Assembly (NCBI GenBank): GCA_023251455.1
Contig: JAHEYT010000030.1
Coordinates: 62,001-126,000, forward strand
Direction of reading: 5' to 3'
Origin: Bacteroidota bacterium
Lineage (GTDB): Bacteria > Bacteroidota > Bacteroidia > Bacteroidales > Prolixibacteraceae
Length of the DNA stretch: 64,000 nucleotides
The position numbers and the translations under genes were made by a program. Positions 29,818-54,696 of the stretch are shown here, one piece after another. Under the pieces are notes generated by a model. It was given only the letters and a program-made list of their open reading frames with translations, was not told the origin of the DNA and ran no database searches. Each line of letters begins with the position of its first letter. Position 1 is the stretch's first letter.

Positions 29818-29831
29818 CAATTAGCCAGAGC

Positions 29832-32102: not shown

Positions 32103-32106
32103 GGCT

Positions 32107-32243: not shown

Positions 32244-32368
32244 TATATCATATCGACTAACAGGACGTCGAAAACATACATTTTGGGCATGGCGTTATCG
32301 TTAAATTGGGAACATAATGCCAATTAGTATGAACGAAACGGTTCTTGTTTTATGCTGTTACAAAAAAA

Positions 32369-32401
32369 AGAGTCCATCACCACTTCAGGTAATGGACTCT
32401 T
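32369..32401. terminator. Terminator after CcsBA gene / TonB-receptor gene
   Basis: AAGAGTCCATCACC (32368-32381) pairs with GGTAATGGACTCTT (32388-32401) with one C-A mismatch. An A-run (32362-32369) supplies the T-run for minus-strand transcripts. Confidence 0.85.
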
Positions 32402-32427
32402 CCGGCATATACGATTATATCTGATTC

Positions 32428-35400
32428 TTATTCCTGAACATCATCAGGATCGGTAATATTTCCATTCTTTTCCTCGGCATACCAGGCACCCACAACAAGG
32501 CCAACAATAACCACAATAGCCACATACAAACCACTTGGAATTGGTGGAGGATCGCCTGCTCCATACGAGTGCATTCCGGAGAGATAATAATTCACCCCGA
32601 AAAAAGTCATCAACACCGAACTCAAACCTACCAAAGCAAGGCTATTCAAAGCGAAAGTGCTTTTTAATCCGGGAACTTTCCGAAGATGCAGAATGATTGT
32701 GTAAACCAGAACAGTTACCAATGCCCAGGTTTCTTTGGGATCCCAGCCCCAATAACGCCCCCACGATTCGTTGGCCCAAACTCCGCCAATGAATGAGCCA
32801 ATGGTGAGCATAAAAAGTCCAATGATCAGGGCCATTTCAACGATATAAGAAACTTCGAGAATGGTAAAACTGATGGATTGATTGTTCTTTTTGTTTCGCA
32901 AAATCATGAGTACCAGATTGAGCATTCCGAGCAAAGCTCCCATGCCCAAAAAGCCATAACTGGCAGTTATAATGGCAACATGAACTACCAGCCAATACGA
33001 TTTCAGAACAGGAACCAAATTGGTTATTTCCGGATTCATCCAGCTCATGCCGGCAACAAAAAGGATAATTGATGCCAGAAGCGTAGTTACTGCCAAAGTA
33101 ATCGGTGATCGTTTCAGAAAAATAAATCCTGAAAGACTGGTTGCCCAACCCACATAAATCATGGTTTCGTAACCATTACTCCACGGAGCATGTCCCGAAA
33201 TATACCACCGAGCAATTAACCCAAACGTATAACAAAGAAATGCCACAGCTATCAATATGGTTCCGATATTAACGTATTTCAAAAGTCCTTTGCCTGGTTT
33301 GAATATTAGCATAAAATGAACAACGAGCAGAACAAAACCCAGCAAGGCATATATTTTAGCCATTTTTCCAAAAATATTCCATTCGTTGTAGAAAATCTCC
33401 ATGCTAATTTTAGTGGAAGAAGGAATAATATCGGCTCCATAAGTGCGCTGGAATTTTTTGATATAACCCAAATTCTCGTCAGGTTTCGACCAGTTTCCGG
33501 AGGCTTCAGCCTGAAAATAACTTTCATAATATACGTTCAGAATATTAGCAGCAAAATCAACTTCTTCCTTCTTCTTGGTTTGTGGGAAAGTTGTGGATGT
33601 TACCCAAGTTTTGCGTTCGTCGTTTGGAACCGGGAAAATCTTTAGAAAATCGCCGTTAAAAATCTGGTAGCAGATATTTACGCGTTCATCAACATTCATA
33701 ATTTCCTTGTCCAGCTTATTCCGCAGCGTCTGCTTTTTATTGTAGGCTTCCTGAACCATATCATTCAAGCGGTATTTTCCTGACTCATCAAACATCTGCC
33801 GGAATGAAATAAATCCGCCCGATGCACCTAAAGTTTTTGCTAATTCAGGATTGCCAACTTTTACCAAAGGCACGACCTTCCATTTTTCAGGATTGGCGCT
33901 CATTTCAAGGAAGAATTCGACGGCTGACATACCATCCCAATTATCCGTTTTGGCAATTTTTCGCAATAAATCGGATGCAAGCGTGCTGATTGGTTCAATT
34001 CGGCCCTGGTGATCCTGAACCAACAATTCGCTAAAAGCATCAATATGTTTATTTTTTGCTGCTGAATTACTAGCTGCAAATGCTGAATTACCAAGTAAAC
34101 TCAGTCCGGTTACAAGCACACCAATCGTTAGTATTTTGACTGCATGACGCTGTGCCTGAAGCTTTGAGCTTAATCGAATAAGTTTCTGGAATCGGCTGCT
34201 TTTGCTAAAAACCGTGAACACCATACCTAAAGCCATGAAAAAATATCCGAGATATGAAATCATTGTTCCCCAATAATCCTGATTTACAGAAAGTACGGTT
34301 CCCTTTTCATCCTGATCGAATGAAGACTGAAAGAAGCGATATCCCTGATACTTCAGGATATTATTCATAAAAATACGGAACGGACGTTCAACAGAAGCTA
34401 CCGGATCTTTAAGCGTAATCTCGCTGGCATATGATGACGGACTCATTGAACCAGGATATCTTTCAAGCTGAAAATCGCGAAGGAAAATGCTAAAAGGCAA
34501 TTCGCGGGTAACAGCTCCATATGAAATGCTAAGGTTAATACCATTAACGGTGCAGGTTGCCGGGTCGGTAATTTCACCGTCTTTCTCAAAAACATTAACC
34601 CGACGAACCTCATTTCCTGAAGTTATTTTGGCCGTAAAAGCATTCATTCCACCCATCTGACTTTGATCGGGCGACTGAACCAAAGCAGGCGTTGCTTTAG
34701 CCATATAACTTTTAAAGACAAAACCTGACTGCCCCATCTGATATAAAATATTCTCGTTTACCGGGTATGAAACTGAGGGTAGCAACTTTTCTCCGGTTGG
34801 TCCAGTCATTGAGGTTACAGCAACCGTATCAGCGCAAATCATACTTAAACCATTATTGGTCCGGTTGAAAACCACTTTAGCAGAACCGTCACCAGTTTCA
34901 AATCCAAAACTAGCTAATGGCATTTGCTTCTTTTGGTTTGGACTTATATAGAATTCTATATGCTGATTGATGCCATCACTATAAATCAAGGAAAGGATTG
35001 GGCTTCCGTTTGCATCTGGAACAATTGTTTCGGATGCGCCAGTCACAAACAATTCATTTTCGACGGTTACCTCTTTCCCATCAACCTGAAGAGTCTTTTT
35101 ATAGTTATTATTGGTATTTGGAGTGAATGCGACCTGAGTCATGCTGTTGACTTCACTGCTATTGGCAATAGCTTTTAAAGTGATATAACTGGTCCCTGAA
35201 ACGACCTGATTAGTCGATTCTCCTTCACGTATATGCATACTGCCTTCAAATCCGAAATATCGGGTAACTCCTGCCCCGATGATAATCAGGATAAAAGCCA
35301 GATGGAACATCAGAATGGCCCATTTTTTCCGGTTAACCAATTTATATCTGAATATACTTCCTGACAGATTAATAACTCCTACCAAAAGCAGTAATTCGAA

Positions 35401-35547
35401 CCACCAGGCCTGGTATATCAAAACCTGAGCAGTAGAGGTTCCGTAATCATTTTCAATGAAAGTGGCATATGCTATCGAAATGGCAAACATGATCAACAGC
35501 AAAACCGTGAAAAACATGGAGAATAGAAAAGATACTATTTTTTTCAT
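32428..35547 (-). CDS. ccsBA: Cytochrome c synthase CcsBA (ResB-CcsA fusion)
   Basis: 1039 residues; system II cytochrome c biogenesis. It exports heme and ligates it to CXXCH motifs in the periplasm. The N-terminal part is ResB/CcsB-like: membrane helices at the start (FTVLLLIMFAISIAYATFI), HLAFILIIIGAGVTRY, a large periplasmic domain, and another helix near 430. A second helix-periplasmic stretch contains a lone signal-like segment (VTGLSLLGNSAFAAS). The C-terminal 350 residues are CcsA-like with conserved His (HVAIITASYGFLGMG) and the Trp-rich heme-handling WWD motif GRYWGWDPKETWAL (about 930-943). Fused CcsBA is common in Bacteroidota and epsilonproteobacteria. Next to six multiheme cytochrome genes it is the obvious maturation factor. 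It lies downstream of the tetraheme gene, separated by a terminator. Confidence 0.95.
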   Translation of the reverse strand: MKKIVSFLFSMFFTVLLLIMFAISIAYATFIENDYGTSTAQVLIYQAWWFELLLLVGVINLSGSIFRYKLVNRKKWAILMFHLAFILIIIGAGVTRYFGFEGSMHIREGESTNQVVSGTSYITLKAIANSSEVNSMTQVAFTPNTNNNYKKTLQVDGKEVTVENELFVTGASETIVPDANGSPILSLIYSDGINQHIEFYISPNQKKQMPLASFGFETGDGSAKVVFNRTNNGLSMICADTVAVTSMTGPTGEKLLPSVSYPVNENILYQMGQSGFVFKSYMAKATPALVQSPDQSQMGGMNAFTAKITSGNEVRRVNVFEKDGEITDPATCTVNGINLSISYGAVTRELPFSIFLRDFQLERYPGSMSPSSYASEITLKDPVASVERPFRIFMNNILKYQGYRFFQSSFDQDEKGTVLSVNQDYWGTMISYLGYFFMALGMVFTVFSKSSRFQKLIRLSSKLQAQRHAVKILTIGVLVTGLSLLGNSAFAASNSAAKNKHIDAFSELLVQDHQGRIEPISTLASDLLRKIAKTDNWDGMSAVEFFLEMSANPEKWKVVPLVKVGNPELAKTLGASGGFISFRQMFDESGKYRLNDMVQEAYNKKQTLRNKLDKEIMNVDERVNICYQIFNGDFLKIFPVPNDERKTWVTSTTFPQTKKKEEVDFAANILNVYYESYFQAEASGNWSKPDENLGYIKKFQRTYGADIIPSSTKISMEIFYNEWNIFGKMAKIYALLGFVLLVVHFMLIFKPGKGLLKYVNIGTILIAVAFLCYTFGLIARWYISGHAPWSNGYETMIYVGWATSLSGFIFLKRSPITLAVTTLLASIILFVAGMSWMNPEITNLVPVLKSYWLVVHVAIITASYGFLGMGALLGMLNLVLMILRNKKNNQSISFTILEVSYIVEMALIIGLFMLTIGSFIGGVWANESWGRYWGWDPKETWALVTVLVYTIILHLRKVPGLKSTFALNSLALVGLSSVLMTFFGVNYYLSGMHSYGAGDPPPIPSGLYVAIVVIVGLVVGAWYAEEKNGNITDPDDVQE

Positions 35548-35636
35548 GATTCTAAAATCTACAAAATTTCAATAAAAAACATTCAACAACTGATGAATTT
35601 AAACTTGAGTAACGAATGGGTTATATTTAAAAAAAA

Positions 35637-35663
35637 TCCTTTGTTTTAAATTAAAACAAAGGA
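35637..35663 (-). terminator. Terminator after the tetraheme cytochrome gene
   Basis: TCCTTTGTTTTAA (35637-35649) and TTAAAACAAAGGA (35651-35663) are perfect complements, with flanking A- and T-runs on both sides (minus strand ends in TTTTTTT). Lies between the tetraheme gene and ccsBA. Confidence 0.8.
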
Positions 35664-35691
35664 ATTTTTCCAATTCAGATTGAATCTGAGT

Positions 35692-36183
35692 TTATTTTGT
35701 TGTTGGATCGTCGTGAGCGATTTTAGCCGAATATTCTTTGAAGTTAAATCCTTTGTAATTTGGACTTTCTTCATTGTGGCATTTTTTACACACTTTTTCG
35801 TCTGGCATGATCATACCTTTTGACATCGCTAAGGTTTTATCTTTCATTACGGTAGCAACTTTATAAGCACTACCTGGGCCGTGGCATGATTCACATGAAA
35901 CTCCTTCAGCAACAGTAATTGTAGCAACTAGCGCCTGATTTACACCAGCAGCAGTAGAGTGGCATTTCAAACATTTTGGATTAGTGGCATCAGCACCTTT
36001 AAGGCTTTGCATAGCTTTTGCATGAACACTGGAAGCCCATTTGTTGTATTGCTCGCCTTTATCGGCCTTGTTGTGACACATTTTACATTTAGCAGCACCA
36101 ATATATTTAAAATCCTCAGCGCTTACCATGCCAATGGTAAGAATTACCATTCCAAGTAAAAAAATAATTTTTTTGTAGTTCAT
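35692..36183 (-). CDS. Periplasmic tetraheme cytochrome c (cytochrome c554-like)
   Basis: 163 residues with a cleavable signal peptide (MVSA, about residue 22). Four CXXCH motifs: CKMCH, CLKCH, CESCH and CKKCH. Spacing and the motif EGVSCESCHGPGSAY match the small cytochrome c554/c-family tetrahemes that shuttle electrons in the periplasm. Adjacent genes encode a NapC/NirT-type quinol-oxidising cytochrome upstream and the heme-attachment enzyme downstream, so it is a likely electron carrier of this chain. An FNR-like palindrome (36304-36317) and a half-site (TTGAC at 36254) lie in its upstream spacer. Confidence 0.92.
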   Translation of the reverse strand: MNYKKIIFLLGMVILTIGMVSAEDFKYIGAAKCKMCHNKADKGEQYNKWASSVHAKAMQSLKGADATNPKCLKCHSTAAGVNQALVATITVAEGVSCESCHGPGSAYKVATVMKDKTLAMSKGMIMPDEKVCKKCHNEESPNYKGFNFKEYSAKIAHDDPTTK

Positions 36184-36303
36184 AGTTGCAAGTGTTTTTA
36201 ATGATTAGAAATATTTTGTTATTATTTAAATCAAATTATATACCATAAATTTCTTGACCTAACAAAAATGCAGTTAATTTTCTTCAACGCAAAAAAATAT
36301 TAC

Positions 36304-36317
36304 TTAATATTTGTCAA
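36304..36317 (-). promoter_or_regulatory. FNR-type palindrome (TTAATATTTGTCAA)
   Basis: Matches TTGAY-N4-RTCAA with one mismatch in the left half. Centre about 127 nt upstream of the tetraheme start. A second half-match, TTGAC at 36254-36258, lies closer (77 nt). Confidence 0.4.
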
Positions 36318-36327
36318 TAGTACGTGT

Positions 36328-37830
36328 CTAATATAATTGTGTATGGCAGCTTGAACAAAGCTCAGTCTTCCAGGCCTCATCGATATCAACTGGATGCTTA
36401 AATTCTAGAGGTTCAAATGCTTTGGAATATTCCAAGCTATCGGGAGTCCCTTGAGCTAGAATATTATGACATAAATTGCAATCTCTCGAAATCACTTTTC
36501 CCGACTGGCTGGCATGTCTATCATTGTGACATCTGAAACAACCATCGTATTCCATGTGTCCGATGTTGTTTGGATAGGATTTCCAGCTGGCTTTCATATA
36601 AGGGAAAATATTTTTGGCATAACCATTTTGTATTTCAACTATGGCAGTTGCAATATCCGCTTTTTTACTTGTTGCCAAATCAGGATAATTTGAACTGTAA
36701 AAAGCAGAAACTTTCTCGGAGATGGATAAAAAAGCACTGTCTTTGGTGGAATATTCAGGATACAAAACTTCCATGGCAACTTTTTTGATACCTGGCAGTG
36801 TTTTCGAAATTTTTCCTGAACTGATCATCTTATCAACAAAATTCTGAGGTGTATTGTAGTTGTGCGATGGACGGTTGTGGCAATCAAGACAATCCATAAC
36901 ACGGATTTCGAGTGAATCGAGTTTTGCCTGACTGACCTGATTTTCGCTGTCGGTATAAACTTCACTTTCGCCGGTTTTCAAATTGGTGTATTTAACCCAG
37001 GGAATCACCTGCCGGTTTTTTGTAGTGGTTTTGTATTCAATCCTGACATCCGGATTGATATGCTGGTGGATTCCTTTTTCCAATCCTGCAGCAGTCATCT
37101 TCGAACTGGTTTTCATTTGCAGGTGAATAATTTGCTCTGTATTTGAATCGTCAGCCAGGAACGATTCCTCCACTTTTATTTTCCGGTCATAGAATTTTTC
37201 GGGCCAATGACATTTTTCACAGGTTTCCCTTGCCGGGCGAAGGTTTTCAATTGGTGTTGGAATTGGTGTTGGATATTTATGAGCAATGACTGAATAAACC
37301 TGATACATACCTGATAATTTACTCTTTACGTACCAACCTGCGCCTGCTCCAACATGACATTCGACACAAGCAACACGCTCATGTGATGATCCCTGGTAAG
37401 TCGTATATTCAGGCTCCATAACCTGATGACAAAGTTTGCCGCAAAACTCAACCGATTCGGTCATGTGAAATGCTTCATAACTTCCAATTGAGGAAATTAT
37501 TACAAGGAAGATTGTACCAAAAACAAAGATTATGGAAGCATTCCTTGTAGCAATATTATTGAAATCAAGTATTGGCCAGTTTGTGGGCTTACCTGCAGCA
37601 TCAGCCAGTCTGGCACGTTTTCGGTTTAACCTCATGCCTATCGGGATCAGCAATAAGCCGCCAACCATAAAGACCGGGAGAACCATATAAATAAACAGAC
37701 CAATGTAGGAGCCTCCAAAATTAAAGAATGTACTTAATATGAGGAGTGAAAGGATTGCAGCCAGGTTAAAAACGGCCAGAACTGCCCCGATTATTGAAAC
37801 GTAATTTTTAATTGAAGAAGGAAGTTTCAT
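36328..37830 (-). CDS. NapC/NirT-type membrane-anchored heptaheme cytochrome c
   Basis: 500 residues. Three N-terminal helices (about 12-35, 42-65, 97-117) anchor it; the rest is periplasmic. Seven heme motifs: CGKLCH, which has three residues between the cysteines, then CVECH, CEKCH, CLDCH, CFRCH, CNLCH and CSSCH. The stretch CGKLCHQVMEPEYTTYQ with a following SSHERVACVECHVG is the NapC/NirT/NrfH first-heme signature, where a Met may ligate heme 1. Such proteins oxidise menaquinol and pass electrons to periplasmic or outer-membrane partners. The last three hemes extend beyond the usual four-heme NapC core. An FNR-like palindrome lies about 80 nt upstream. No terminal reductase such as NrfA is next to it, so it likely feeds the other cytochromes here. 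Confidence 0.93.
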   Translation of the reverse strand: MKLPSSIKNYVSIIGAVLAVFNLAAILSLLILSTFFNFGGSYIGLFIYMVLPVFMVGGLLLIPIGMRLNRKRARLADAAGKPTNWPILDFNNIATRNASIIFVFGTIFLVIISSIGSYEAFHMTESVEFCGKLCHQVMEPEYTTYQGSSHERVACVECHVGAGAGWYVKSKLSGMYQVYSVIAHKYPTPIPTPIENLRPARETCEKCHWPEKFYDRKIKVEESFLADDSNTEQIIHLQMKTSSKMTAAGLEKGIHQHINPDVRIEYKTTTKNRQVIPWVKYTNLKTGESEVYTDSENQVSQAKLDSLEIRVMDCLDCHNRPSHNYNTPQNFVDKMISSGKISKTLPGIKKVAMEVLYPEYSTKDSAFLSISEKVSAFYSSNYPDLATSKKADIATAIVEIQNGYAKNIFPYMKASWKSYPNNIGHMEYDGCFRCHNDRHASQSGKVISRDCNLCHNILAQGTPDSLEYSKAFEPLEFKHPVDIDEAWKTELCSSCHTQLY

Positions 37831-37904
37831 AATTTACTTTTAGCCAGTTGGACTTTGTGAATATTCTGCAAGTTGGTTAAAAGCAGGCAATATTTCAACA
37901 GGTA

Positions 37905-37918
37905 TTGACAAGTGTCAT
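37905..37918 (-). promoter_or_regulatory. FNR-type palindrome (TTGACAAGTGTCAT)
   Basis: Fits TTGAC-N4-GTCAA with one mismatch at the last base. Centre about 81 nt before the start of the heptaheme gene. Confidence 0.5.
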
Positions 37919-37925
37919 CCCAACT

Positions 37926-37990
37926 ATCTATTTACAGGCGTAACCGTAAATAGATGAACCTTATCGAAGTATTTTTTGATAAGGTTCATC
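37926..37990 (-). terminator. Two overlapping perfect hairpins after the 19-heme gene
   Basis: Hairpin A: GATGAACCTTATC (37953-37965) with GATAAGGTTCATC (37978-37990), 13 bp, 12-nt loop. Hairpin B: ATCTATTTAC (37926-37935) with GTAAATAGAT (37946-37955), 10 bp. They share GAT at 37953-37955 and cannot both form fully. Hairpin A is the likely end of the 19-heme transcript. Confidence 0.75.
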
Positions 37991-38015
37991 TCCACATTAA
38001 TCGGTGTTGTTTATT

Positions 38016-40811
38016 CTAATGAAATAGTAATGAATAAATTATAAGAAGAACCAGAACGATTCCGGTGAAAAGGAAAACATATCCAAAGAACTTCACTGTT
38101 TTCATTCGTTTTGAAGGAAACTCGTTCCTCGAAGTTACTTCCTGCAATTTTCCTGACTTTTCAAGTTCTTCAAATTCACGCGGACGGTCTTCCTTGTATT
38201 CATCCATTCGAACTTTTCCGGTAAAAATAACTGTATCCATGGGGAATGCTTCGGGGCGAAGGTGTGTATTAAAGAAATGGATCGTGAAAATAAATCCAAC
38301 AGCCAGAAGCGCTTCGTCACTGTGAATGATTTGTGCTACGTTGATCAACCATCCCGGTAAGAATTTGGTAAAGAAAACCGGGAACCAAAGCACCAAACCG
38401 GTTGAACCGATTACAACAACTCCCCAGAAAACAGCCATATAGTCGAATTTTTCCCAGTAAGTCCATCTTCCGTAAGATGGCCGAGGCCCCCTTCCTACGA
38501 ACCATTTCACAGAAGCAAGGAAATCTTTAATATCCTGACCATTAAACATCAGGGAGTTTTTACCAAAAATAAAGTCTTTCATGCTGAGCCGCTTTTCAGC
38601 TTTCATTTTGAACAAAGAATACACATGGTAAGTAAAATACCCAAAAGTTATTACTGCGGCAAAACGATGTACAATACCAGCAGCATAGGCGCCTCCAATA
38701 AGCTTCACTAAGAATTTTGCCCAATCCATGTAAGCAAACTTCAGTAACATACCAGTAAACGCCAGCGACAAGAAACTGATAATTACAAAAATGTGGGTGA
38801 TACTCTGACTCCGTGTAAATCGCCTTACGTAAATCTTTTCGCCCACTTCTTTTGCATGAACTTTCTTTTTTCTCATGGCATCAATCGACCTTGGAAGCCA
38901 TAAAAGCGTATGTATTCCGAAGAAAAGGAAAACACTGACCAATAAACCGGTCATGGCCCAGAATGTATAATACAGCCACGGGAATTTCGTTTTATTGTTG
39001 TGAGTGGCATGAGTTAAATATCCGGTAAACTTCTTACTCGCATCGGCATGACACTGCTGACAGGTTGCAACAATATTTTCAGGACCTACCATTGATTTTG
39101 GGTTTTCGATCTTATAAATATTGTGAGCTCCATGGCAATCGGAACAACGGGCAGCCTGAAGATAACCCAATTGGTATACTTTCCCGTGGTAAGTTTCCAA
39201 ATATGATTCGGCTAACTCAGAGTGGCATTTACCGCATTGTGTGGTAATCTCGCCCATAAACTTATCCTTATGTACTTCCGACATATTGTGTGCGGTATGG
39301 CAGGTAGCACAGGTTGGATATTTTATTTCACCTTTTTCTTCACGGTATGCATGATCGCTGGCTATATACTCATTGTAAATCCCCTTGTGACAGCTTCCAC
39401 AGGTAGCAGCCACATTTTTCGGATGTACCGATGAACGTGGATCGGATTCTTTTAATTCAAAATGCGAAGTATGGCAATCGGTGCAAACTGCTGCCGAAAG
39501 TAGTCCTTTCTCCGAAAGACTTCTTCCATGTACGCTTTGTGAATAATCGTGAAATGCATCTTTTTCTTTAAGATTAGTTCCTTCAACAGCTTTTCCTCCG
39601 GTTTTATGACACTCGCCACAAAGCTTCGGAATTGAAGCCCTGTAAACAGGAGAAGTCTCATCTTTCTTGTATTTCACAAGATGTGTCCCATGACAATCGG
39701 TACAATACGGAGCATTTTCCTTTTTGTTGAAATAGGCCTGACCGTGACCGCTCGCAAAATAAATATCAGATTCCTCGGCATGACAAGCTGAGCAATCCAC
39801 CTTTCCTGACGTTTCACAAGGACGTGCAAGGTGAATAGATACATCAGAGTGGCATTTTACACAGGTAATGTTCTTGTGGCTTGAAGCAGCCAAATCGCCA
39901 ACCTCAACTTTTAAAGAAACAGCCTTATTGTCAACCATTTTATGTGTGTCTGAGTTCGCGTGGCATTTCAGACAAGTATTATCAGATATAGTTGAAATCA
40001 GATTCTTTAGTTCAACTTTATGAGGTGGGTGACACGAAGTACAAGCTGGTATTGCTCCTGGTTTTGACTCCCACAGTTCTTTATTAATAACCTTTGTATG
40101 AACATCTTCTATTCGCGCATGACATTGCATACAGGTTGCAGCAATATTTTTTGGAGAAGTGCTTGATGAAACATTGGTATGTGGTAATATAAGGTGATTC
40201 CCATGACAATTATTACAAGTTGCCGATACGATCAATCCCTTTTTGTACAACCCCTGTCCATGAATACCTTCGCTGTAATTCTCCAGAATATTGTGTTCCC
40301 CAATATTGTAGGCTCTCGCTACCGGGGCGCCTTCTTTATGGCATGAACCACACAATATCGGAATATTCATCTTGTAGGTTCGGGATTTAGGATCATCCGA
40401 TTTCAGGATATCATGAGTTCCATGACATTCTTTACACGTTGGAGCATACTTCTCGTTGTTGAGAAATGCACGTCCGTGAATTCCTCTAAAATATTTGTCT
40501 TTGGCATCGGTATGGCAAGTTCCGCAATCAACCGGCTTAAGTGTTTCAGGATGTGGAAATTCTGCTACTGCCGCATCAGTGTGACATGATGCACACAAAA
40601 CACTTTTATGTACTGAATGATCAAGCGAAGTTGGCTTCATGTACAAGGAAACCTTTTTCCCAGCCCGTTCCTTCGTCAACGTAGGATCATCGTGACAAGT
40701 AAAACAATCATCGTTCGTTTGAGCCGATAATTTAGGAGCAACCTGTAGTAACAGAATTGCAAGGAAAAGTAACTTACCGGAATTTCTGAAATAAAAAAGA
40801 ATCTCTCTCAT
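38016..40811 (-). CDS. 19-heme cytochrome c fused to a cytochrome b561-like membrane domain
   Basis: 931 residues from the ATG at 40811; a TTG frame starts at 40838 but would push the signal peptide inward. The signal peptide ends in KLSAQ. The periplasmic part has 19 CXXCH motifs from CFTCH (about residue 36) to CQQCH, many followed by GTH or GAH. Hemes 2-8 and 10-16 repeat as a block: VDCGTCH against [19 protein letters not shown] against [12 protein letters not shown], and [13 protein letters not shown] against [13 protein letters not shown]. The C-terminal 320 residues hold about five helices of a FdhI/NiFe-hydrogenase-type cytochrome b ([61 protein letters not shown]). This suggests direct quinone-to-multiheme transfer in one polypeptide. 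An FNR-like palindrome lies 73 nt upstream. Confidence 0.93.
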
Positions 40812-41110
40812 TTTTCTCTTCACTTTTATAATCCTCAAAAGTCCTCAAAATCCTTGCTCTATCCTATAACTAACCCAATGATATTTGTCAATTTACAGCA
40901 TCAGAGATAGGTATCATCTATTTAAAATATCAAAACCTATCAAATAGATCAATTCATTAGGATTGAAGAGCGAACTTGGCTCTTTGCCCAAAGATTAACA
41001 GAAGTCAAAAAAAGGAAAAAGTTGAACACAATCCTGTTACAGATCAGAGCTCAACCTTTTCAATGATATCCATTATTAAAATAAAGTCAACTGATATTCA
41101 TCTCTTCTTT
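40812..41110. other. Spacer between the b561-like and 19-heme genes
   Basis: 299 nt, AT-rich. Contains the FNR-like palindrome at 40878-40891 and a weak 6-bp hairpin AAGAGC/GCTCTT at 40966-40984. No coding sequence is supported. Confidence 0.5.
40878..40891 (-). promoter_or_regulatory. FNR-type palindrome (ATGATATTTGTCAA)
   Basis: Fits TTGAT-N4-GTCAA with one mismatch at the first base. Centre 73 nt upstream of the ATG of the 19-heme gene, a distance compatible with class II activation at about -41. Confidence 0.5.
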
Positions 41111-41734
41111 TTAATGAACCTGATGCCAACCATTAATAATACTTTTGAAATTTTCAAGCGGAGATTTCCCAATAGAGGCAATATATATGTGTATTACCAA
41201 AAAGATAGAAATAAAGAATCCCATAGCGGAATGAAAAATTGCAGTCACAAACACACCACTAAAAGTGTAAACTTTATCAATAATTATTTCAGGAAATAAA
41301 AGAGCCAAGCCAGTAACTATAACAACAGGAACAGCCATATACATAACTATGATGTATATATATTTCTGAAGCGGGTTAAATTTTCTTTTTGCCGACAGCG
41401 GGAACGGGGCAGGCATACCGTGAAACATTCCCCAAGCATAGTAAATCGCCTGTTTTATTGGTTTTTTCAAGAACCCTTGCGGTTTAATAAGGTAGTATTT
41501 GCCATTCGGAGTAACAATATTCCCAATGAAATAAACAAAATAGCTAAGGGTTACCACAATACCGGCAATATTATGAAGGTTTACAATCATCTTAAAGCCC
41601 ACGACTTGAGATGATTCGATACTCGACTGCATGGAGATACCAGTAATAATTAGCGCAAGTATACCCAATGCGTTAAATCCATGCCAGATTCTCAACCAGG
41701 CTGGATAAAAATATAGTTTTTCAGGAGCTGTCAT
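41111..41734 (-). CDS. Cytochrome b561-like integral membrane protein
   Basis: 207 residues, four hydrophobic helices, no heme c motif. Conserved histidines for b-type heme are in the helices: RIWHGFNALGILALIITG, NLHNIAGIVVTLSY, FHSAMGFFISIFLVIHIYIA. This is the pattern of the prokaryotic b561/thiosulfate-reductase cytochrome b subunit. Its start overlaps the end of the preceding heptaheme gene by 1 nt spacing only, so the two are one transcript and probably one complex: a quinol-oxidising b subunit delivering electrons to the heptaheme protein. Ends with a 299-nt spacer before the 19-heme gene in which no strong terminator is visible. Confidence 0.88.
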   Translation of the reverse strand: MTAPEKLYFYPAWLRIWHGFNALGILALIITGISMQSSIESSQVVGFKMIVNLHNIAGIVVTLSYFVYFIGNIVTPNGKYYLIKPQGFLKKPIKQAIYYAWGMFHGMPAPFPLSAKRKFNPLQKYIYIIVMYMAVPVVIVTGLALLFPEIIIDKVYTFSGVFVTAIFHSAMGFFISIFLVIHIYIASIGKSPLENFKSIINGWHQVH

Positions 41735-41735
41735 T

Positions 41736-42674
41736 TTATTTCTTCTTTAAAATTCTGAAAATGCTATGTATTATAATCCCACAAAGTGTGAGAAGAAAAA
41801 TTATGATACTTGCAATTTTAAGATGTGGAATTTGATGTGAACCAATAATATACGATTCATTTGCCAATACTGTATTTAGGCCGGTGCTTTCGGCCCGCTT
41901 CTGCAAATTCTGGTACTTGTATAACGAAGCTTTCAGGCGGGAGTTTGCGGAATGGCATTCAACACATTTCCGTAACGCTTTATCCTTGGGAAGAATATCG
42001 TGCGAAACCATCAAACTATCAACAACTTCGGTATGACATTCAATACAACGAACATGCTGAAAATGTAGTTCCTGATTTGGTAACCATTCATGAACCTGAA
42101 CTAATTTAGGATTTTCGTGGCCCGAGACTAATTTGTATTTTTTCATATCGTTATGGCACGAAAGACACATTTTATTGCTGTAATCAACTATTTCAAGAAC
42201 ATTACTGCTTGTTCGGGCTGTGGCCACATAAGTATGTTGACTATGACATTTGGTACATGAAAAATTATCGCCACTTATTTTGTAATGAACGCTTTTCTTA
42301 AACTCTTCATCAATCTTTTCAAATTGATAGGTTGCAAACGACTCATCACCACCATGACAATCAAGACAAGTACTTAAAGGTTCCAGTTTTAAGTTGGCCT
42401 GGTGAGGGTAAGTTCCATATTCTGAAGAATGACAATCGGTACAATCAAACTGTTTGTGTACGCCCGCTGTCATGGCCACAGTGTCAAGAATGTAATACGG
42501 ATTCATCAATCTTTTCATCTCCTTATCGGTAACCGAATTATGGAAAGAATAAGATTGACTAGAATGACATTTTAAACACGGATGATGCTCTGCATTTTGA
42601 TATGATTGAGCATTTAAATTAAGCGAAATACAATATATAAATATTGAGATTAATAGTACCAACCGATATTTCAT
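41736..42674 (-). CDS. Membrane-anchored heptaheme cytochrome c
   Basis: 312 residues. Signal peptide to about residue 22 (LNLNAQ); seven CXXCH motifs (CLKCH, CTDCH, CLDCH, CTKCH, CLSCH, CIECH, CVECH); and a C-terminal membrane helix (IASIIIFLLTLCGIIIHSIF) with a basic tail, so the heme domain is periplasmic and anchored at its C-terminus. It directly precedes the b561-like gene with one nucleotide between, which suggests a two-subunit quinol:cytochrome module. Its ATG lies inside the first copy of a 28-bp repeat, the second copy being 88 nt upstream. Confidence 0.92.
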   Translation of the reverse strand: MKYRLVLLISIFIYCISLNLNAQSYQNAEHHPCLKCHSSQSYSFHNSVTDKEMKRLMNPYYILDTVAMTAGVHKQFDCTDCHSSEYGTYPHQANLKLEPLSTCLDCHGGDESFATYQFEKIDEEFKKSVHYKISGDNFSCTKCHSQHTYVATARTSSNVLEIVDYSNKMCLSCHNDMKKYKLVSGHENPKLVQVHEWLPNQELHFQHVRCIECHTEVVDSLMVSHDILPKDKALRKCVECHSANSRLKASLYKYQNLQKRAESTGLNTVLANESYIIGSHQIPHLKIASIIIFLLTLCGIIIHSIFRILKKK

Positions 42675-42696
42675 CTGTCTATAATTTGTTTTTTAA
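42669..42696 (-). repeat. 28-bp direct repeat, copy 1, spanning the heptaheme start codon
   Basis: 26 of 28 bases match the copy at 42757-42784 (offset 88 nt), ending TATAATTTGTTTTTTAA in plus-strand reading. It includes the ATG (42672-42674) of the heptaheme gene. Confidence 0.8.
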
Positions 42697-42756
42697 TTGT
42701 CAGATGGAACTCCCAAACAATCATTTCTCTGCGTGAGAAAGATTTTCCACTGGTCG

Positions 42757-42784
42757 TTTCATCCGTTTATAATTTGTTTTTTAA
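42757..42784 (-). repeat. 28-bp direct repeat, copy 2
   Basis: Second copy of the repeat at 42669-42696. It also carries an ATG on the minus strand, but no long frame follows it, so it looks like a relic of a local duplication of the gene's 5' end. Confidence 0.8.
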
Positions 42785-42906
42785 AACATCTCGAACACTA
42801 CTGTTCCTATTTTTTCGACTTTCAAAATAACTCTTCAGTATTTCAGAAATACGAAAATACTCATTTAACAATAGGTCATTAAACTACTTCAGATTATTAT
42901 TAAAAA

Positions 42907-42941
42907 AATGGTAATATCCTCAAATAAAGAATATTACCATT
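42907..42941 (-). terminator. Terminator after the beta-barrel gene
   Basis: AATGGTAATAT (42907-42917) pairs with ATATTACCATT (42931-42941), 13-nt loop, with an A-run at 42902-42908 that gives a T-run on the minus strand. Confidence 0.8.
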
Positions 42942-42976
42942 CTATAAATTAAAAATCTAAACAAATTTCCTATAAA

Positions 42977-43897
42977 TTAAAAACCCCAAAGTCTGGTGAT
43001 AACAAATCCAATTGCAAAACCAGTTTTATCCATTTCATTTTGGTTCCACATGATATTATCCTGTGGCAATAATGAAGATGTTGAAGCCATGAAAACCTGG
43101 AAAGCATGTGTTCCGGTTGAAACTTCATAACCAAAAGCAACACTTGGTTTTGGGTGATTTGTCCACTCGCGTTGTTCCGAAATATCTTTAATCTTTAAAG
43201 GATTGTCATAATTGAAGATAATTGATCCTTGAGGCGATACTTTAATACGGCCACTGGCGTGAACACCAACTTTATCGTGATCATACAATACACCCACAGC
43301 ATTGTAATGTGTAAAACTAACAGCTGCCTGAAGTGATAACCATTCATTAAATTTGCGTGCGACCACCAATTGTGAAAAATAACTCAGGCGATCATTAAAT
43401 TTAAAGTGATAAGTTGGTCCTGAATAAGCTTCTCTTACAATACCTGACTCAAATGCACTAACTGCTCTTCCGTCAATTCCAACATTACCATATAACATTA
43501 CTGAAACTGGCATTGTATTTTTACGGGTTTGTTGCAGAACAGTCCATTTTAAATTTGCGTCGGTAGTCATATACCGTTTGGTAATTCCAGCTCCAATCTG
43601 AACGTTTTTACAAGGTACATAATTCAGGCCTATCCTGATGTTGGCAGAACCGTAAATTCCCCAAAGATTAGAATGTCCATTTTCAATGGTTCCAAATTTA
43701 TGCTGCATAACCATTTCCAGCGTTTTTTTATCTGGAATAACTACGGTTTGCGCATCAATCAGATAACCACTTTCAAAAGTAGCGCTTACCGGATAGTCCT
43801 TTTCTTTTGTCCCTGCTGCCTCAGTTGTCACATCTTGCGCAAATGATAACATTGAACTAAAAGAAAGAAGTATTATAAATATGATATTTTTTTTCAT
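42977..43897 (-). CDS. Outer-membrane beta-barrel protein (DUF5777-like)
   Basis: 306 residues with a signal peptide ending in SFAQ (about residue 21). The mature sequence alternates polar and hydrophobic residues and ends in GFVITRLWGF, a C-terminal aromatic expected for barrel insertion. It contains MVMQHKFGTIENGHSNLWGIYGSANIRIG, split here as MVMQHKFGTIENG and NLWGIYGSANIRIG, typical of the DUF5777 barrel family in Bacteroidota (family name from memory). It follows a monoheme lipoprotein gene by 24 nt and lies inside the cytochrome locus. A role as the outer-membrane barrel of an electron conduit is a hypothesis from context. Confidence 0.8.
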   Translation of the reverse strand: MKKNIIFIILLSFSSMLSFAQDVTTEAAGTKEKDYPVSATFESGYLIDAQTVVIPDKKTLEMVMQHKFGTIENGHSNLWGIYGSANIRIGLNYVPCKNVQIGAGITKRYMTTDANLKWTVLQQTRKNTMPVSVMLYGNVGIDGRAVSAFESGIVREAYSGPTYHFKFNDRLSYFSQLVVARKFNEWLSLQAAVSFTHYNAVGVLYDHDKVGVHASGRIKVSPQGSIIFNYDNPLKIKDISEQREWTNHPKPSVAFGYEVSTGTHAFQVFMASTSSLLPQDNIMWNQNEMDKTGFAIGFVITRLWGF

Positions 43898-43921
43898 TTC
43901 AGCGAATATTAAATGTTATCA

Positions 43922-44287
43922 CTAATTATTTTTAGCTCCTTCGGTTATCCATTGAAGAATTAATGCACCTTGTGTTGCAGAAAAAGTTGCACCATGAGTT
44001 CCTGAAGTTGGAATAGTATAAAGTTTACTGCTTGCAGGACTTGCTGTATTGACGTATTTAGGTACTAGCTGAGCATAGGCTACGGCCGCTCCCATCGTTG
44101 GAGCCTGAGTGCTATGGCATAAAATGCATTTATCTGTTAGAATGGGAAGAACCTGAGTTGAAAAGCTAACCGGTTCACCTCCTGGGTTTACCACTGGAAC
44201 CTCAACTGGCAATACAAAATCATATTTGCAGCCATTCAGAAACAGTGACAACAAAACTAAAATAAGGAATATGCTATGTTTTTTCAT
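43922..44287 (-). CDS. Small monoheme lipoprotein cytochrome c
   Basis: 121 residues from ATG 44287 (MKKHSIF); an ATG three codons upstream is less likely. The lipobox is FLNGC (Cys20). The mature protein has one heme motif, CILCH, in SFSTQVLPILTDKCILCHS, the arrangement seen in planctomycete-type cytochrome c domains, and ends in LILQWITEGAKNN. It is lipid-anchored, probably in the outer membrane, and is in an operon with the beta-barrel gene 24 nt downstream. A His or Met sixth ligand is not obvious. Likely an electron carrier paired with the barrel. Confidence 0.85.
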   Translation of the reverse strand: MKKHSIFLILVLLSLFLNGCKYDFVLPVEVPVVNPGGEPVSFSTQVLPILTDKCILCHSTQAPTMGAAVAYAQLVPKYVNTASPASSKLYTIPTSGTHGATFSATQGALILQWITEGAKNN

Positions 44288-44311
44288 AATATTCATTTTA
44301 AAAGTTGATAC

Positions 44312-44350
44312 AAAAAAAGGCTTCTCTTCCTAAAAAAAGAAGCCTTTTTT
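44312..44350 (-). terminator. Terminator after the collagen-like heme lipoprotein gene
   Basis: AAAAAAAGGCTTCT (44312-44325) pairs with AGAAGCCTTTTTT (44338-44350). GC-rich core with A/T arms on both sides. Confidence 0.88.
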
Positions 44351-44370
44351 ACATCTGACACCAAGATTTA

Positions 44371-45720
44371 TTATGGAAGTACTGCAATTGAATTCTTCAA
44401 TAATGTCGTAGTATAGGCTGTATTATGAATACCCAAACTATAATCTCTTAATACTAATTGGAAGTTTAGAATAGCACCATATTGAGCATTTGTCAAACTC
44501 AATTTTGGCAAAGCCAAGTTGTCTGCTTTTTGTTCGGCTGTCCAAGTTGCAGCAGGCGCTGGGTTTTGGAAAGGGCCAGTAGCATTTGCATATGTAGCCA
44601 AACCTAATTTAGGATTATTAAGGCTAGGATCATAAACATTCAAATAACCGTCATAATTTTTCGTTGTTAAGCCATACCACAAATTAGCTTCAGAATCATT
44701 GCTTCTGTTCATTATTTCAACTCCGTCAACAGTAAGTTTTGCAGCTAACTGGGTAAGAAGCAATTTCACGTCATCCCTGGTTTGTTTCCAATATTTTGTA
44801 GTTGTTGCTGCACTAATCGGTGCTGTTGAATGGCACCCAGTAACATTACAGCCATCAAATTTACCAACTGCATTAAATGTATGTCCACCGGCACGTCCAA
44901 CCATAGCACCCATATGACAATCCATACAAGAAGCAACTTCAGTGTGTTTTGAATTTGTATATCCTGTACCAAATTCCACACCACCCATACCTGCATAAAC
45001 TGCACCTACGGAACCATAATGAACATGCATGCGGTAACTTGGTCTAATAATATTTGTTGTAGCACTATTGTTATTTGCATCATAAGCTATTCCAGTTGGA
45101 TTCTTAGCAATCGCGTCATAATCCTGAACATTACCTGTCTGAAGATTAGACTGAGGACGAGGTTGGTGACATTTTACACAAAGGTTACTCTTTCCACCGT
45201 CTGCTTTCAGGTCAATAGTTTTCTTTCCACCCCACATCACCATTGGAACTGGTTTAACGGTGGTAAAGGCCAAATCGGCAGTACCATAAGTGGTATGTAA
45301 TGAACTGTGGCAAGTTGAACAGCCAATTTCACCATAAGCAGTACTGGCTAATGTATTGTATTGTAAAGAATATTTACCATTCGAACCAAGTGTGAAAACA
45401 GGTTGTACATCACGTGCAACAATGTCTTTAAATGCTTCCTGTGCATGACAAGGAGTACAACCGACGTTACCCGCTTCTTCAAAAGCAGCTTCTCCATACT
45501 CATGTTTCGAGAATTGGAATTGAGTAGAAATTAAATCTACCTTACCTGAAGCGTGACATACCTTACAGGTTTCATTTGCGTCTTTACCATTGGTACCATC
45601 TTTACCATTAGCACCAGCAGGTCCAGTCAATCCCATAGGGCCTTCTTTTACACATGATGAAGCTATACTCATGACTACAAATGCAGAAAGTAAAAGCTTG
45701 GAAAAATTGTTAAGTTTCAT
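44371..45720 (-). CDS. Multiheme outer-membrane lipoprotein with a collagen-like stalk
   Basis: 449 residues. The lipobox is IASSC (Cys23). Directly after it come seven Gly-X-Y triplets (GPMGLTGPAGANGKDGTNGKD), a short collagen-like spacer. Heme motifs follow: CKVCH, CTPCH, CSTCH, CVKCH, CMDCH, and CNVTGCH with four residues between the cysteines, so five canonical plus one non-canonical. The C-terminal 170 residues have no heme and contain a YGLTTKNYDGYLNVYDP segment. A lipid anchor plus stalk would hold the heme domain away from the membrane, as expected for a surface or periplasmic redox protein. First cytochrome gene after the FNR-like regulator; a perfect FNR palindrome and a -7 box lie upstream. 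Confidence 0.9.
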   Translation of the reverse strand: MKLNNFSKLLLSAFVVMSIASSCVKEGPMGLTGPAGANGKDGTNGKDANETCKVCHASGKVDLISTQFQFSKHEYGEAAFEEAGNVGCTPCHAQEAFKDIVARDVQPVFTLGSNGKYSLQYNTLASTAYGEIGCSTCHSSLHTTYGTADLAFTTVKPVPMVMWGGKKTIDLKADGGKSNLCVKCHQPRPQSNLQTGNVQDYDAIAKNPTGIAYDANNNSATTNIIRPSYRMHVHYGSVGAVYAGMGGVEFGTGYTNSKHTEVASCMDCHMGAMVGRAGGHTFNAVGKFDGCNVTGCHSTAPISAATTTKYWKQTRDDVKLLLTQLAAKLTVDGVEIMNRSNDSEANLWYGLTTKNYDGYLNVYDPSLNNPKLGLATYANATGPFQNPAPAATWTAEQKADNLALPKLSLTNAQYGAILNFQLVLRDYSLGIHNTAYTTTLLKNSIAVLP

Positions 45721-45770
45721 AAAATAAGTATGTTAAGGTTACTATTATTATCCTCACGTTGCATGTATGG

Positions 45771-45778
45771 CAAACGTA
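45771..45778 (-). promoter_or_regulatory. -7 promoter box (TACGTTTG) for the multiheme lipoprotein gene
   Basis: The minus strand reads TACGTTTG, exact TAnnTTTG, 51 nt upstream of the ATG. The FNR palindrome lies about 100 nt further upstream. Confidence 0.45.
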
Positions 45779-45874
45779 TTTATACATGGCTAAAATAGAA
45801 ACCTAAACTGATTATTTTAAAAACGGTCAATTGATGTTTAGAAGCGATTGCGATGATTAAAGACAAAATAAATA

Positions 45875-45888
45875 TTGATATATATCAA
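45875..45888. promoter_or_regulatory. Perfect FNR box (TTGATATATATCAA)
   Basis: Exact TTGAT-N4-ATCAA palindrome, between the regulator gene's stop and the multiheme lipoprotein gene. Its centre is about 161 nt from the lipoprotein ATG and about 103 nt from the -7 box, further than a classical class II site, so either another promoter exists or it acts from a distance. Confidence 0.65.
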
Positions 45889-45908
45889 TCCAATAAAGCA
45901 AAAAAAAA

Positions 45909-46634
45909 TTAACCTTTTCGACTGATCAACTGTAGCGCATCTTCATCGAGAATATGAATATTGGTTCCATCAACAGCAATTATGGCAGAAGATTTAAATT
46001 CTTTCAAAATTCGGATGAAGCTTTCCATAGTCATTCCGGTCATATCAGCTAATTCCTGCCTCGAGAGTCTGGTATCGAAAGGATTACAAAGGAAAATTTC
46101 GTTTTTAAGATATAGCAACAAGTCGGATACTCTTCCCGGCATGTATTTCTGAGTAATTCCGACCAGATTATCCAACATCTGTATATTTTGTTGGTTATTC
46201 AGCTTTAGTAGTTCAAAGGCAAATTGACTATTATTTGACACCAACTCATAAATCTTTTCAGAGTCGATAAAACAACACTCCACTTGCGTAACGGCCTGAA
46301 CCGTAAAATGCCTGATTTCATCAATAAAAATACCTCCACCAGTTAGGATAGAGTGGGTAGCGACCAAACGTAGAATTAATTTCTTATCACCTTCACCTTC
46401 AGCTATAATTTTAGCAAGTCCCCTTTTGATACAAACAACGTGACTTGCTGATGTATTTTGCTTTAAAATGGTTTCGCCCGCATTAAAAGTGACATGTCGC
46501 TTTTCTTTCACAAGCATTTCCAGTTCTTCTTTTGTAAGGCAATTGAAAATGTTATCTTCTCCTTCATCAAAACAACGTGCACAGCAACGATCTTTGCATT
46601 TCAAGCACGCCTCTTCTATTCTTCTAGGCTCCAT
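45909..46634 (-). CDS. CRP/FNR-family transcriptional regulator with N-terminal cysteine cluster
   Basis: 241 residues. N-terminal cysteines at 10, 13, 17, 18, 21 and 32 (CLKCKDRCCARC) precede a cyclic-nucleotide-binding-type beta-roll (about 45-140), a dimerisation helix and a winged helix-turn-helix (about 188-215). In the recognition helix, ESFIR places Glu204 and Arg208 where FNR has its Glu209 and Arg213; the FNR Ser212 position is Ile. The cysteine cluster suggests an iron-sulfur or redox sensor. It stands at the head of the cytochrome locus on the same strand, and FNR-type palindromes lie upstream of several cytochrome genes, so it is the likely oxygen or redox regulator of this locus. 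Confidence 0.9.
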   Translation of the reverse strand: MEPRRIEEACLKCKDRCCARCFDEGEDNIFNCLTKEELEMLVKEKRHVTFNAGETILKQNTSASHVVCIKRGLAKIIAEGEGDKKLILRLVATHSILTGGGIFIDEIRHFTVQAVTQVECCFIDSEKIYELVSNNSQFAFELLKLNNQQNIQMLDNLVGITQKYMPGRVSDLLLYLKNEIFLCNPFDTRLSRQELADMTGMTMESFIRILKEFKSSAIIAVDGTNIHILDEDALQLISRKG

Positions 46635-46881
46635 AAGTTACATCTTTTCAAGTAAATAGATGAGATAGTATATTGATTCAAATTTTAAATTTCAAGCTGC
46701 TTAAGATACTTAATCTATTTAAATATTCAAATGACTACATATTTAGTAAAATATGCTGTAAAACTAATTCAAACCTTGGTTATCCCAAATCAATTTCTGA
46801 AAAACATCAAAAAAAGGAGGTTATTCTATCTTGTCAGCAATCATTAGAATTGAAAGATAAATCAACTATGGGATTAATAAT

Positions 46882-46915
46882 AAAGATCCTGTAAAAACTA
46901 ATTTACAGGATCTTT
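46882..46915 (+). terminator. Strong hairpin in the gap
   Basis: AAAGATCCTGTAAA (46882-46895) pairs perfectly with TTTACAGGATCTTT (46902-46915), followed by TATTTTTTCG: a typical plus-strand intrinsic terminator although no plus-strand gene is recognised before it. Confidence 0.75.
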
Positions 46916-46927
46916 TATTTTTTCGAG

Positions 46928-46952
46928 TGGAGCTGGCGGGAACAGAACCCAT
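46928..46952 (-). pseudogene. Degenerate tRNA/tmRNA 3' end (possible attachment-site remnant)
   Basis: The minus strand reads ATGGGTTCTGTTCCCGCC followed by AGCTCCA. The part CCCGCCAGCTCCA looks like the 3' T-stem and acceptor arm of a tmRNA or tRNA, but the T-loop is TTCTGTT where TTCGA or TTCAA is expected, and the 5' stem is broken. No rest of a tRNA is found upstream on that strand. Reads as a fragment, such as the copy left by integration into a tRNA-like gene. Confidence 0.35.
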
Positions 46953-47198
46953 CAGCTATCCAGCTAAATATCAACTGTTTAATTTTTCAAAATTCTTCAA
47001 ACTCCCGAATTACCACCTCAAAACCGCACTGTTTTGAGTATCAGGCTGCTTCCATTTGCATAACAAAACTACCAAAAAATTCGGAATAAAAGTCCCTGCC
47101 TAATACCCAACGTCCAATCCAATGCATTTAAACTTTTCATTCCAATCTAAATCACGACTTTTATTTCTGTATCCTTTTTTTGAGTGTGGAACTGCATT

Positions 47199-48305: not shown

Positions 48306-48324
48306 GAGCCGATTATTTTTCATA

Positions 48325-48376
48325 TTCGGCTCAAATATAATAAAATTACGAGCCGAATACAACTAATATTTGGCTC
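48325..48376 (-). promoter_or_regulatory. Fic gene promoter overlapped by two GGCTC inverted repeats
   Basis: On the minus strand: -33 TTG at 48362-48360, 20-nt spacer, -7 TATATTTG at 48339-48332, ideal for Bacteroidota. One inverted repeat (GAGCC near 48371-48375 with GGCTC at 48350-48354) covers the -33; another (CGGCTC with GAGCCG, 48326-48355) covers the -7. A further CGGCTC occurs at about 48306-48311 at the start codon. The layout suits an operator for the protein's own winged helix. Confidence 0.65.
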
Positions 48377-48643
48377 ACTCGATCCTGAAAATTGGTGGTC
48401 GAGAGAGTCAAAACCAGATTGAACGGAACAATCGTCTCAATTCCTCAAAGTTAGTGTCAATACTGGTTAGGTTTCTTGAACAAAATGGAGGAACGAACCA
48501 GCGTAGGTAATTTTTAAAGGCAGTTGAGATTTCATCTCCACTGAGGCCGTTAACAATTAATAATCTTTTTGAATCAGACCCATAATTGAGTCAGATAACA
48601 TATTTATTTTGCACCATTGTCTTAAGAATACTTACAATTGGAG
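48377..48643. other. Spacer between the FucP-like and Fic genes
   Basis: 267 nt of AT-rich sequence with no coding support, repeat or hairpin that I can defend. Confidence 0.5.
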
Positions 48644-54692: not shown

Positions 54693-54696
54693 GATC

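Follow-up and report, generated by a model that had tools for sequence, protein, structure and literature searches.

A locus rich in c-type cytochromes lies in a 64-kb stretch of DNA from a Prolixibacteraceae bacterium (Bacteroidota; contig JAHEYT010000030.1, positions 62,001 to 126,000), hereafter the window, from whose first nucleotide all positions are counted. The locus (35692..46634) probably encodes an anaerobically regulated trans-envelope respiratory unit, in which known inner-membrane parts are joined to an outer-membrane module. We read it, with a little more confidence than doubt, as a respiratory chain under anaerobic control that leads from menaquinol to an acceptor located at the outer membrane or beyond it. 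The window is part of contig 87 in an assembly of 5.56 Mb, listed with a completeness of 100% and a contamination of 5.09%. In the direction of transcription, the genes encode a CRP/FNR-type regulator (fnr), a hexaheme lipoprotein (coll6), a monoheme lipoprotein (c1lip), an outer-membrane beta-barrel, a heptaheme cytochrome (c7), a b561-type cytochrome, a CbcL-like cytochrome with 19 hemes, a homologue of ImcH, a tetraheme cytochrome (c4) and the assembly protein CcsBA. A first-pass annotation had placed these genes, six of them for cytochromes, on one strand; their positions are as it claimed, all lie on the minus strand, and Pfam matches agree with the identities given for b561, the barrel, the regulator and CcsBA. 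From 35692 upward, the cytochrome genes carry 4 motifs, 6 CxxCH plus 1 CX3CH, 19, 7, 1, and 5 CxxCH plus 1 CX4CH. The claimed total of 44 heme motifs thus comprises 42 strict CxxCH, one CX3CH in the NapC/NirT protein (the ImcH homologue) and one CX4CH in the hexaheme lipoprotein. Of 47 relatives of the latter, 46 have this sixth motif, either as CX4CH or as CxxCH, and therefore 44 is the right count. Shuffled versions of the cytochromes gave means of 0 to 0.08 motifs, with a maximum of 2.

A scan of genome contigs for relatives of the ImcH protein confirmed 401, and the window proteins were compared by BLAST with all open reading frames of the best 80 loci, among which the closest relatives of the window's ImcH are from Prolixibacteraceae. 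Counting any match, c7 and b561 were each found in 57 loci, the barrel in 53, c1lip and the hexaheme protein in 48 each, c4 and ccsBA in 43 each, fnr in 42 and CbcL in 36. All 53 barrel-bearing loci contain c7, and in the four loci with c7 and no barrel (L043, L049, L051, L100) c7 lies no more than about 320 bases from where the sequence ends. The test named beforehand was the co-conservation of barrel and cytochromes. It was borne out in the 53 loci that have room upstream, meaning more than 8 kb before ImcH: the genes for the hexaheme protein, c1lip, barrel, c7 and b561 are all present in 45 and all absent from 8. When a coverage of at least 70% is required, the hexaheme protein is counted in 40 loci and the other four remain at 45; CbcL is present in 22 (24 by any match, including one remnant and one weak match). 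These counts indicate that the five-gene cassette is a stable unit and that CbcL is optional. On a tree of ImcH with 81 rows, the presence of CbcL needs 10 changes when any-match labels are used and cut-off contigs are scored as absent.

The cassette persists away from ImcH. The barrel is missing from 27 of the 80 loci. The genomes of 18 of these loci, several of which stand on contigs shorter than 10 kb, were searched together with 6 cassette-bearing controls. A barrel of the window type, with 35-54% identity, occurs elsewhere in 15 of these 18 genomes, while two have none and one has weak fragments only. Twelve of the 15 surrounding stretches contain c1lip, barrel, c7 and b561, with c7-b561 about 5 kb off on the opposite strand in one case; of the other three, one is without c1lip, one without c7 and one has c1lip and barrel only. 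A hexaheme relative is found within 8 of the 15 stretches. Among 149 genomes of the order, 30 have c7 and 23 have ImcH: 19 have both, 4 ImcH only, 11 c7 only and 115 neither (Fisher 7e-13). Weak rows were left out of this count: 12 among 35 genomes with ImcH, where the matches were partial and of the NapC type, 2 among 32 with c7, 1 among 13 with CbcL, and the 12 weakest rows for the barrel. In the same sample, a DUF5777 barrel lies within 6 kb of 28 of 31 strong c7 loci. CbcL is found in 13 of the 149 genomes of the order, and in a class sample in 1 of 149, which is the window's own genome. Across 395 genomes of the phylum, c7 has a match in 37. The match approaches full length only in the own genome and in one more (38%); 7 matches, from one other family, are partial and in longer frames, and 28 are weak. 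By these matches, c7 appears to be rare outside the order. Chance co-location of the cassette genes is ruled out by their co-conservation both within and away from ImcH loci.

The ImcH homologue (36328..37830; PF03264, 3.4e-9) was assigned by its published description and not by comparison with the Geobacter sequence. That description comprises about 495-519 amino acids, three N-terminal transmembrane helices, a CX3CH motif by the membrane domain and six CxxCH motifs (PMC6295460). The window protein has this signature: it is 500 amino acids long, its hydropathy clusters at residues 13-31, 43-61 and 98-116, with overlapping windows between them, give three N-terminal helices, and a CX3CH at residue 130, beyond these helices, is followed by six CxxCH. 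It shares with Geobacter ImcH the length of 500 amino acids, the N-terminal membrane helices and the order of motifs, but differs in that its gene belongs to the same locus as a CbcL-like gene and an outer-membrane cassette. The ImcH protein of a Melioribacteraceae locus is 53% identical to it. No sequence relative was found in the PDB, and a search of plasmids for Geobacter ImcH gave one short NapC/NirT match, in Selenomonas.

The CbcL-like protein (38016..40838; PF14522, PF01292) has 940 amino acids, with 19 CxxCH motifs fused to a putative b-type membrane domain. The match to PF01292 at residues 604-755 reaches 28.0 bits, below the cut-off of 30.1, and a match resembling formate dehydrogenase gamma at 671-893 is also below its cut-off. 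His 682, 724, 738, 839, 854 and 859 are conserved in 33 sequences, and simple hydropathy gives four clear helices in the b domain, where the CbcL/MtrH/MtoC type is described with six and two hemes b. Judged by these domains, the protein has the CbcL/MtrH/MtoC layout, a multiheme c domain joined to a b-type membrane domain, and its 19 hemes are within the reported range of 3-23 (PMC6295460). It differs from CbcL of G. sulfurreducens, which is described with nine hemes (PMC9129911), and in being optional in the locus. The c7 gene (41736..42674) encodes a heptaheme cytochrome with a C-terminal hydrophobic anchor, whose seven heme motifs are all invariant across 30 aligned sequences. The b561-type gene (41111..41734; PF01292, 5.1e-23) begins 1 bp after it, and H18, H54, H168 and H182 of its product are conserved in at least 97% of 58 sequences. 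PDB sequence searches gave only weak short matches for the CbcL-like protein and c7. The c7-b561 pair resembles CbcBA (CbcA/CbcB) of the Geobacter Cbc5 complex, which is likewise a pair of c-type and b-type genes for the inner membrane (PMC11434368). The likeness is one of gene arrangement only, and the window pair differs in being tied to an outer-membrane barrel and lipoproteins. In Geobacter, ImcH, CbcL and CbcBA are reported to serve acceptors of different potentials (PMC12307469, PMC9129911).

NapC/NirT and b-type proteins had been named in the first-pass annotation as quinol oxidisers, and the family assignments agree with this; quinol oxidation by the window proteins would follow from these families. 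The annotation had also called the locus an independent Bacteroidota version of an electron conduit. This may hold for the outer-membrane part, but the inner-membrane part belongs to families known from Geobacter. Five CbcL-type homologues and one ImcH homologue were counted in Bacteroidetes by Zhong and Shi (PMC6295460), so the inner-membrane parts were already known in the phylum. ImcH and CbcL of D. acetexigens bear consecutive protein accessions (PMC12133095), and adjoining genes for the two may therefore not be unique to the window's group. Among the papers listed by literature searches, judged by titles and the openings of abstracts, none described the outer-membrane cassette, and no paper was found on DUF5777 or on multiheme cytochromes with extracellular electron transfer in Prolixibacteraceae. 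The inner-membrane parts are known families, and the outer-membrane module was not found in print by these searches.

The CbcL-ImcH block has its own pattern of similarity. From about 36500 to 41000 its DNA identity to locus L029 is 82-96% over most of the length and falls to 46% in one 300-bp stretch between the two genes. The remaining genes are mostly 62-83% identical to L029, and most of them are more similar to L035. It seems that the whole block was exchanged together. In the type strain of Draconibacterium orientale (L063, 9204-9749 and 11578-12083), CbcL is a remnant of 181 amino acids and c4 is split into two frames, while close relatives of this strain have kept the full CbcL.

The hexaheme lipoprotein (coll6, 44371..45720) has 5 CxxCH motifs and 1 CX4CH and, shortly after the lipobox cysteine, a collagen-like G-X-Y stretch (45580..45642). 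Six to 12 consecutive G-X-Y triplets are present in all 49 hexaheme relatives from ImcH loci, and six non-motif His are conserved in the family. Compared with the PDB, the family profile is closest to 6qvm (1.7e-13), OcwA (1.3e-12) and NrfA (from 5.6e-12), and the relation spans the heme domain and the C-terminal part; the c7 family profile, used as a control, is much weaker (OcwA 0.74). By this profile comparison, the protein belongs to the NrfA/OcwA superfamily, and a terminal reductase of the cell surface is among its closest relatives of solved structure. It differs from OcwA of Thermincola potens in having six hemes instead of nine and a predicted lipid anchor with a collagen-like stalk; OcwA also has two five-coordinate hemes, and none is evident in the hexaheme protein. 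In NrfA nitrite reductase, the catalytic heme is bound by CxxCK. This motif is found in none of 47 hexaheme relatives and the genome has a separate NrfA, so nitrite reduction of the NrfA type by the hexaheme protein is not favoured. The earlier statement that no NrfA is seen is true within the window, but the same genome has one on another contig (PF02335, 3.2e-183), immediately preceded by a four-heme NrfH-like gene.

The barrel gene (42977..43897) encodes a DUF5777 protein (PF19089, E 3.5e-68; 230 bits against a cut-off of 23.1). The first-pass annotation had paired it with the monoheme lipoprotein, and the c1lip gene (43922..44296, one heme motif) indeed ends 24 bp before it. Structure prediction gives 12 strands, with a predicted local distance difference test score (pLDDT) of 88.3. 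No sequence relative of the barrel profile was found in the PDB, where c1lip has weak short matches, and no barrel relative was confirmed in viral contigs. The annotation had also proposed a barrel-plus-multiheme conduit of the MtrAB or Pcc kind, and this found no support in that form: the MtrB barrel has 26 strands (PMC12133095), and the neighbour here is a monoheme lipoprotein. The 12-strand prediction rules out an MtrAB-like conduit as a family assignment, since a barrel of this size should be too small to sheathe an MtrA-like wire, and the mechanism was revised. The window shares with MtrCAB and Pcc systems a putative quinol oxidation at the inner membrane and the combination of a barrel and a multiheme lipoprotein, but it has no MtrA-like periplasmic gene adjoining the barrel. 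Other DUF5777 barrels, linked to YceI-like proteins, also have monoheme lipoproteins alongside, whereas the partners of the window type are c7-b561 and the hexaheme protein. The neighbours of the barrel paralogues that were read carry one to three heme motifs only. In the window's own genome, C101 and C26 (L119, L120) contain two more DUF5777 barrels beside genes with a single heme motif and, by eye, YceI-like proteins, with no multiheme genes in the stretches read.

Regulation by oxygen is suggested by an FNR-type box, TTGATATATATCAA (45875..45888), located between fnr and the hexaheme gene, 168 nt before the latter. The FNR box consensus is TTGAT-N4-ATCAA. The window box is the sole exact match in the 64 kb, with a chance expectation of 0.36, and matches were seen in 30 of 100 shuffles, so this single box alone could be due to chance. 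Across the loci, a box with at most one mismatch lies upstream of 35 of 49 hexaheme genes (14 exact); among 800 random 300-bp stretches from the same loci, 28 have one; before other genes it ranges from 0 of 43 (ccsBA) to 11 of 44 (fnr). In the five loci where c1lip comes first, the box stands before c1lip, exact in three, with one mismatch in one and with two in one. Sister DUF5777 modules have a box within one mismatch in 1 of 12 cases. The regulator (45909..46634; PF13545, PF00027) has a relative in 39 of the 53 loci with room upstream, and its Cys18, Cys21 and Cys121 are kept in 95-100% of 43 aligned sequences. The predicted box and the Cys-rich regulator point to anaerobic control in the window's own lineage.

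These elements suggest the following mechanism. Menaquinol would be oxidised by the CbcBA-like b561-c7 pair and, where present, by the CbcL-like protein and the ImcH homologue. The electrons may be carried across the periplasm by c4, in some relatives also by a small monoheme cytochrome, and received at the outer membrane by c1lip and the collagen-stalked hexaheme protein. The latter, lifted off the membrane by its putative stalk, would be the terminal cytochrome, and its electrons would most likely go to external acceptors: metal oxides, humics or small shuttles. The barrel may act as a polar channel or a docking partner and not as a sheath round a heme wire, a role favoured because a cytochrome should not fit inside a barrel of 12 strands. 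We propose more tentatively, a little short of an even chance, that the cassette is a new class of outer-membrane electron transfer unrelated to Mtr and Pcc, with a channel barrel and a trimeric stalked cytochrome of the NrfA/OcwA type, working by export or recycling of a redox shuttle or by an undescribed route.

Several observations weigh against a chain that ends outside the cell. No path for electrons can be seen across the outer membrane. The relatives of the barrel accompany monoheme lipoproteins and YceI-like proteins, and its role therefore need not be electron transfer. The relation of the hexaheme protein to OcwA needs the family profile, as a single-sequence PDB search gave no match, and the similarity of its predicted fold to OcwA (AlphaFold2 model, pLDDT 78.8) is weak in Foldseek, with a best E of 0.02. 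ImcH is found without c7 in 4 of the 23 ImcH genomes of the order sample. Only 10 of 16 further cassette promoters have a box within one mismatch, and among the promoters read in the family of one Ancylomarina genome, such a box stands before c1lip in 1 of 5 cases and before the hexaheme gene in 0 of 2. The hexaheme lipoprotein has an incomplete signal for surface export: C-[VT]-K-E-G is present in 45 of 49 relatives, and the minimum in C. canimorsus is K-(D/E)2. This last point also speaks for what we rank as the strongest rival, a hexaheme reductase that faces the periplasm and is reached by a soluble, probably anionic acceptor through the 12-strand barrel, so that no electrons cross the outer membrane. 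Both NrfA and OcwA are relatives of the hexaheme family, the nearest folds of the barrel include the porins KdgM and NanC, and its lumen is polar, with 8 K+R against 4 D+E in a crude assignment by hydrophobic periodicity. We consider this unlikely, although it deserves the most weight among the alternatives. The absence of CxxCK, together with conserved non-motif His equal in number to the hemes (six), suggests that all hemes are bis-His and serve electron transfer; the collagen-like stalk and the ImcH and CbcL partners would be expected for an extracellular acceptor; and NrfA with its NrfH-like partner is encoded elsewhere in the genome.

A direct wire is improbable. Here the barrel lumen would hold c1lip or a bound heme and form an Mtr-like conduit to the hexaheme protein, in line with the position of c1lip next to the barrel, their joint conservation in 45 of 53 loci and the invariance of H66 and H264 in 55 aligned barrels. 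The lumen of 12 strands should, however, be too narrow for a cytochrome domain; a simple periodicity assignment places both His facing the lipid, and the same two are invariant in the YceI-linked sisters of that alignment. Least probable is that the chain runs in reverse and feeds the quinone pool with electrons from a donor outside the cell (reduced metal, corroding iron or a partner cell). Homologues of CbcL, MtoC and MtrH are described in Fe(III) reducers and Fe(II) oxidisers alike, but those of ImcH, in the parts of the same survey available, from Fe(III) reducers only (PMC6295460), and the FNR-type box suggests anaerobic respiration.

Outward transport of electrons, the reading that we prefer, would bear on the physiology of cultured bacteria. 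The locus is present in the cultured genera Draconibacterium, Maribellus, Mangrovibacterium, Sunxiuqinia, Mariniphaga and Ancylomarina. Two Ancylomarina carry the cassette, and in the family of one Ancylomarina genome a barrel of the window type (at least 37% identity) is found in 20 of 56 genomes. Five of the six contexts read there have c1lip, barrel, monoheme gene, c7 and b561 beside a divergent fnr, and the sixth, on a short contig, has c1lip and barrel only. Ancylomarina belongs to the same family, Marinifilaceae, as Labilibaculum (PMC9765461), and the link to the latter is at the level of the family, not of Labilibaculum itself. While fermenting glucose, strains of Labilibaculum are reported to reduce oxides of Fe(III) and, in the case of one strain, of Mn(IV) (PMC5760507, PMC9765461). 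The sections available of the former paper name just NrfHA and a predicted ferric reductase as candidates (PMC5760507). The locus offers a defined and conserved candidate for a route of Fe(III) and Mn(IV) reduction in Bacteroidota, which makes the question testable, and it could explain the reduction of iron and manganese oxides at the surface of some of the many sediment-dwelling members in which this gene block is conserved. If this is true, a barrel far smaller than MtrB, together with a stalked NrfA-type cytochrome, can serve electron transfer at the outer membrane. Bacteroidota are abundant in many anoxic sediments. The cassette is also carried by Mariniphaga sp. KA03 (L066), and for bin KA3, taken as the L066 genome, the table of the mud-volcano paper gives only coxA and an Fe-hydrogenase (PMC8470020).

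The remaining genes of the locus concern periplasmic transport and cytochrome assembly. The small tetraheme cytochrome c4 (35692..36183; PF13435, 1.4e-13), found at a coverage of at least 70% in 30 of the 53 loci with room upstream, is a probable periplasmic electron carrier. CcsBA (32428..35547; PF01578, PF05140) is present in 31 of these loci, in 29 at a coverage of at least 70%. A consensus scan gave terminator-like hairpins on the minus strand between c4 and ccsBA (35637..35663) and 3' of ccsBA (32366..32403), and no Rfam match at the gathering threshold was found in the window from 32000 to 48500. Several loci (L123, L184, L188, L190 and L237-L241) have an extra gene for a small monoheme cytochrome of about 135 amino acids after the barrel gene, usually directly before c7, with two copies in L184; that of L188, the one tested, is of the CBB3/Cytochrom_C type.

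Outside the locus, the window contains a further cytochrome gene with 9 hemes (53610-54746), which has a NapC/NirT-like N-terminus and overlaps the end of a GMC oxidoreductase gene (54697-56358). A paralogous pair is found on another contig (L146, 4066-6883), its cytochrome being 51% identical, and the two genes are possibly a cytochrome-linked sugar dehydrogenase. On contig 50 of the own genome (L145, 4450-8132), adjacent cytochrome genes with 28 and 20 CxxCH adjoin a gene for an Fe-S/FAD pyridine-nucleotide oxidoreductase. There is also a protein of 1979 amino acids with many tetratricopeptide (TPR) repeats (22243-28182) and, further on, a TonB-dependent receptor gene (29757-32102).

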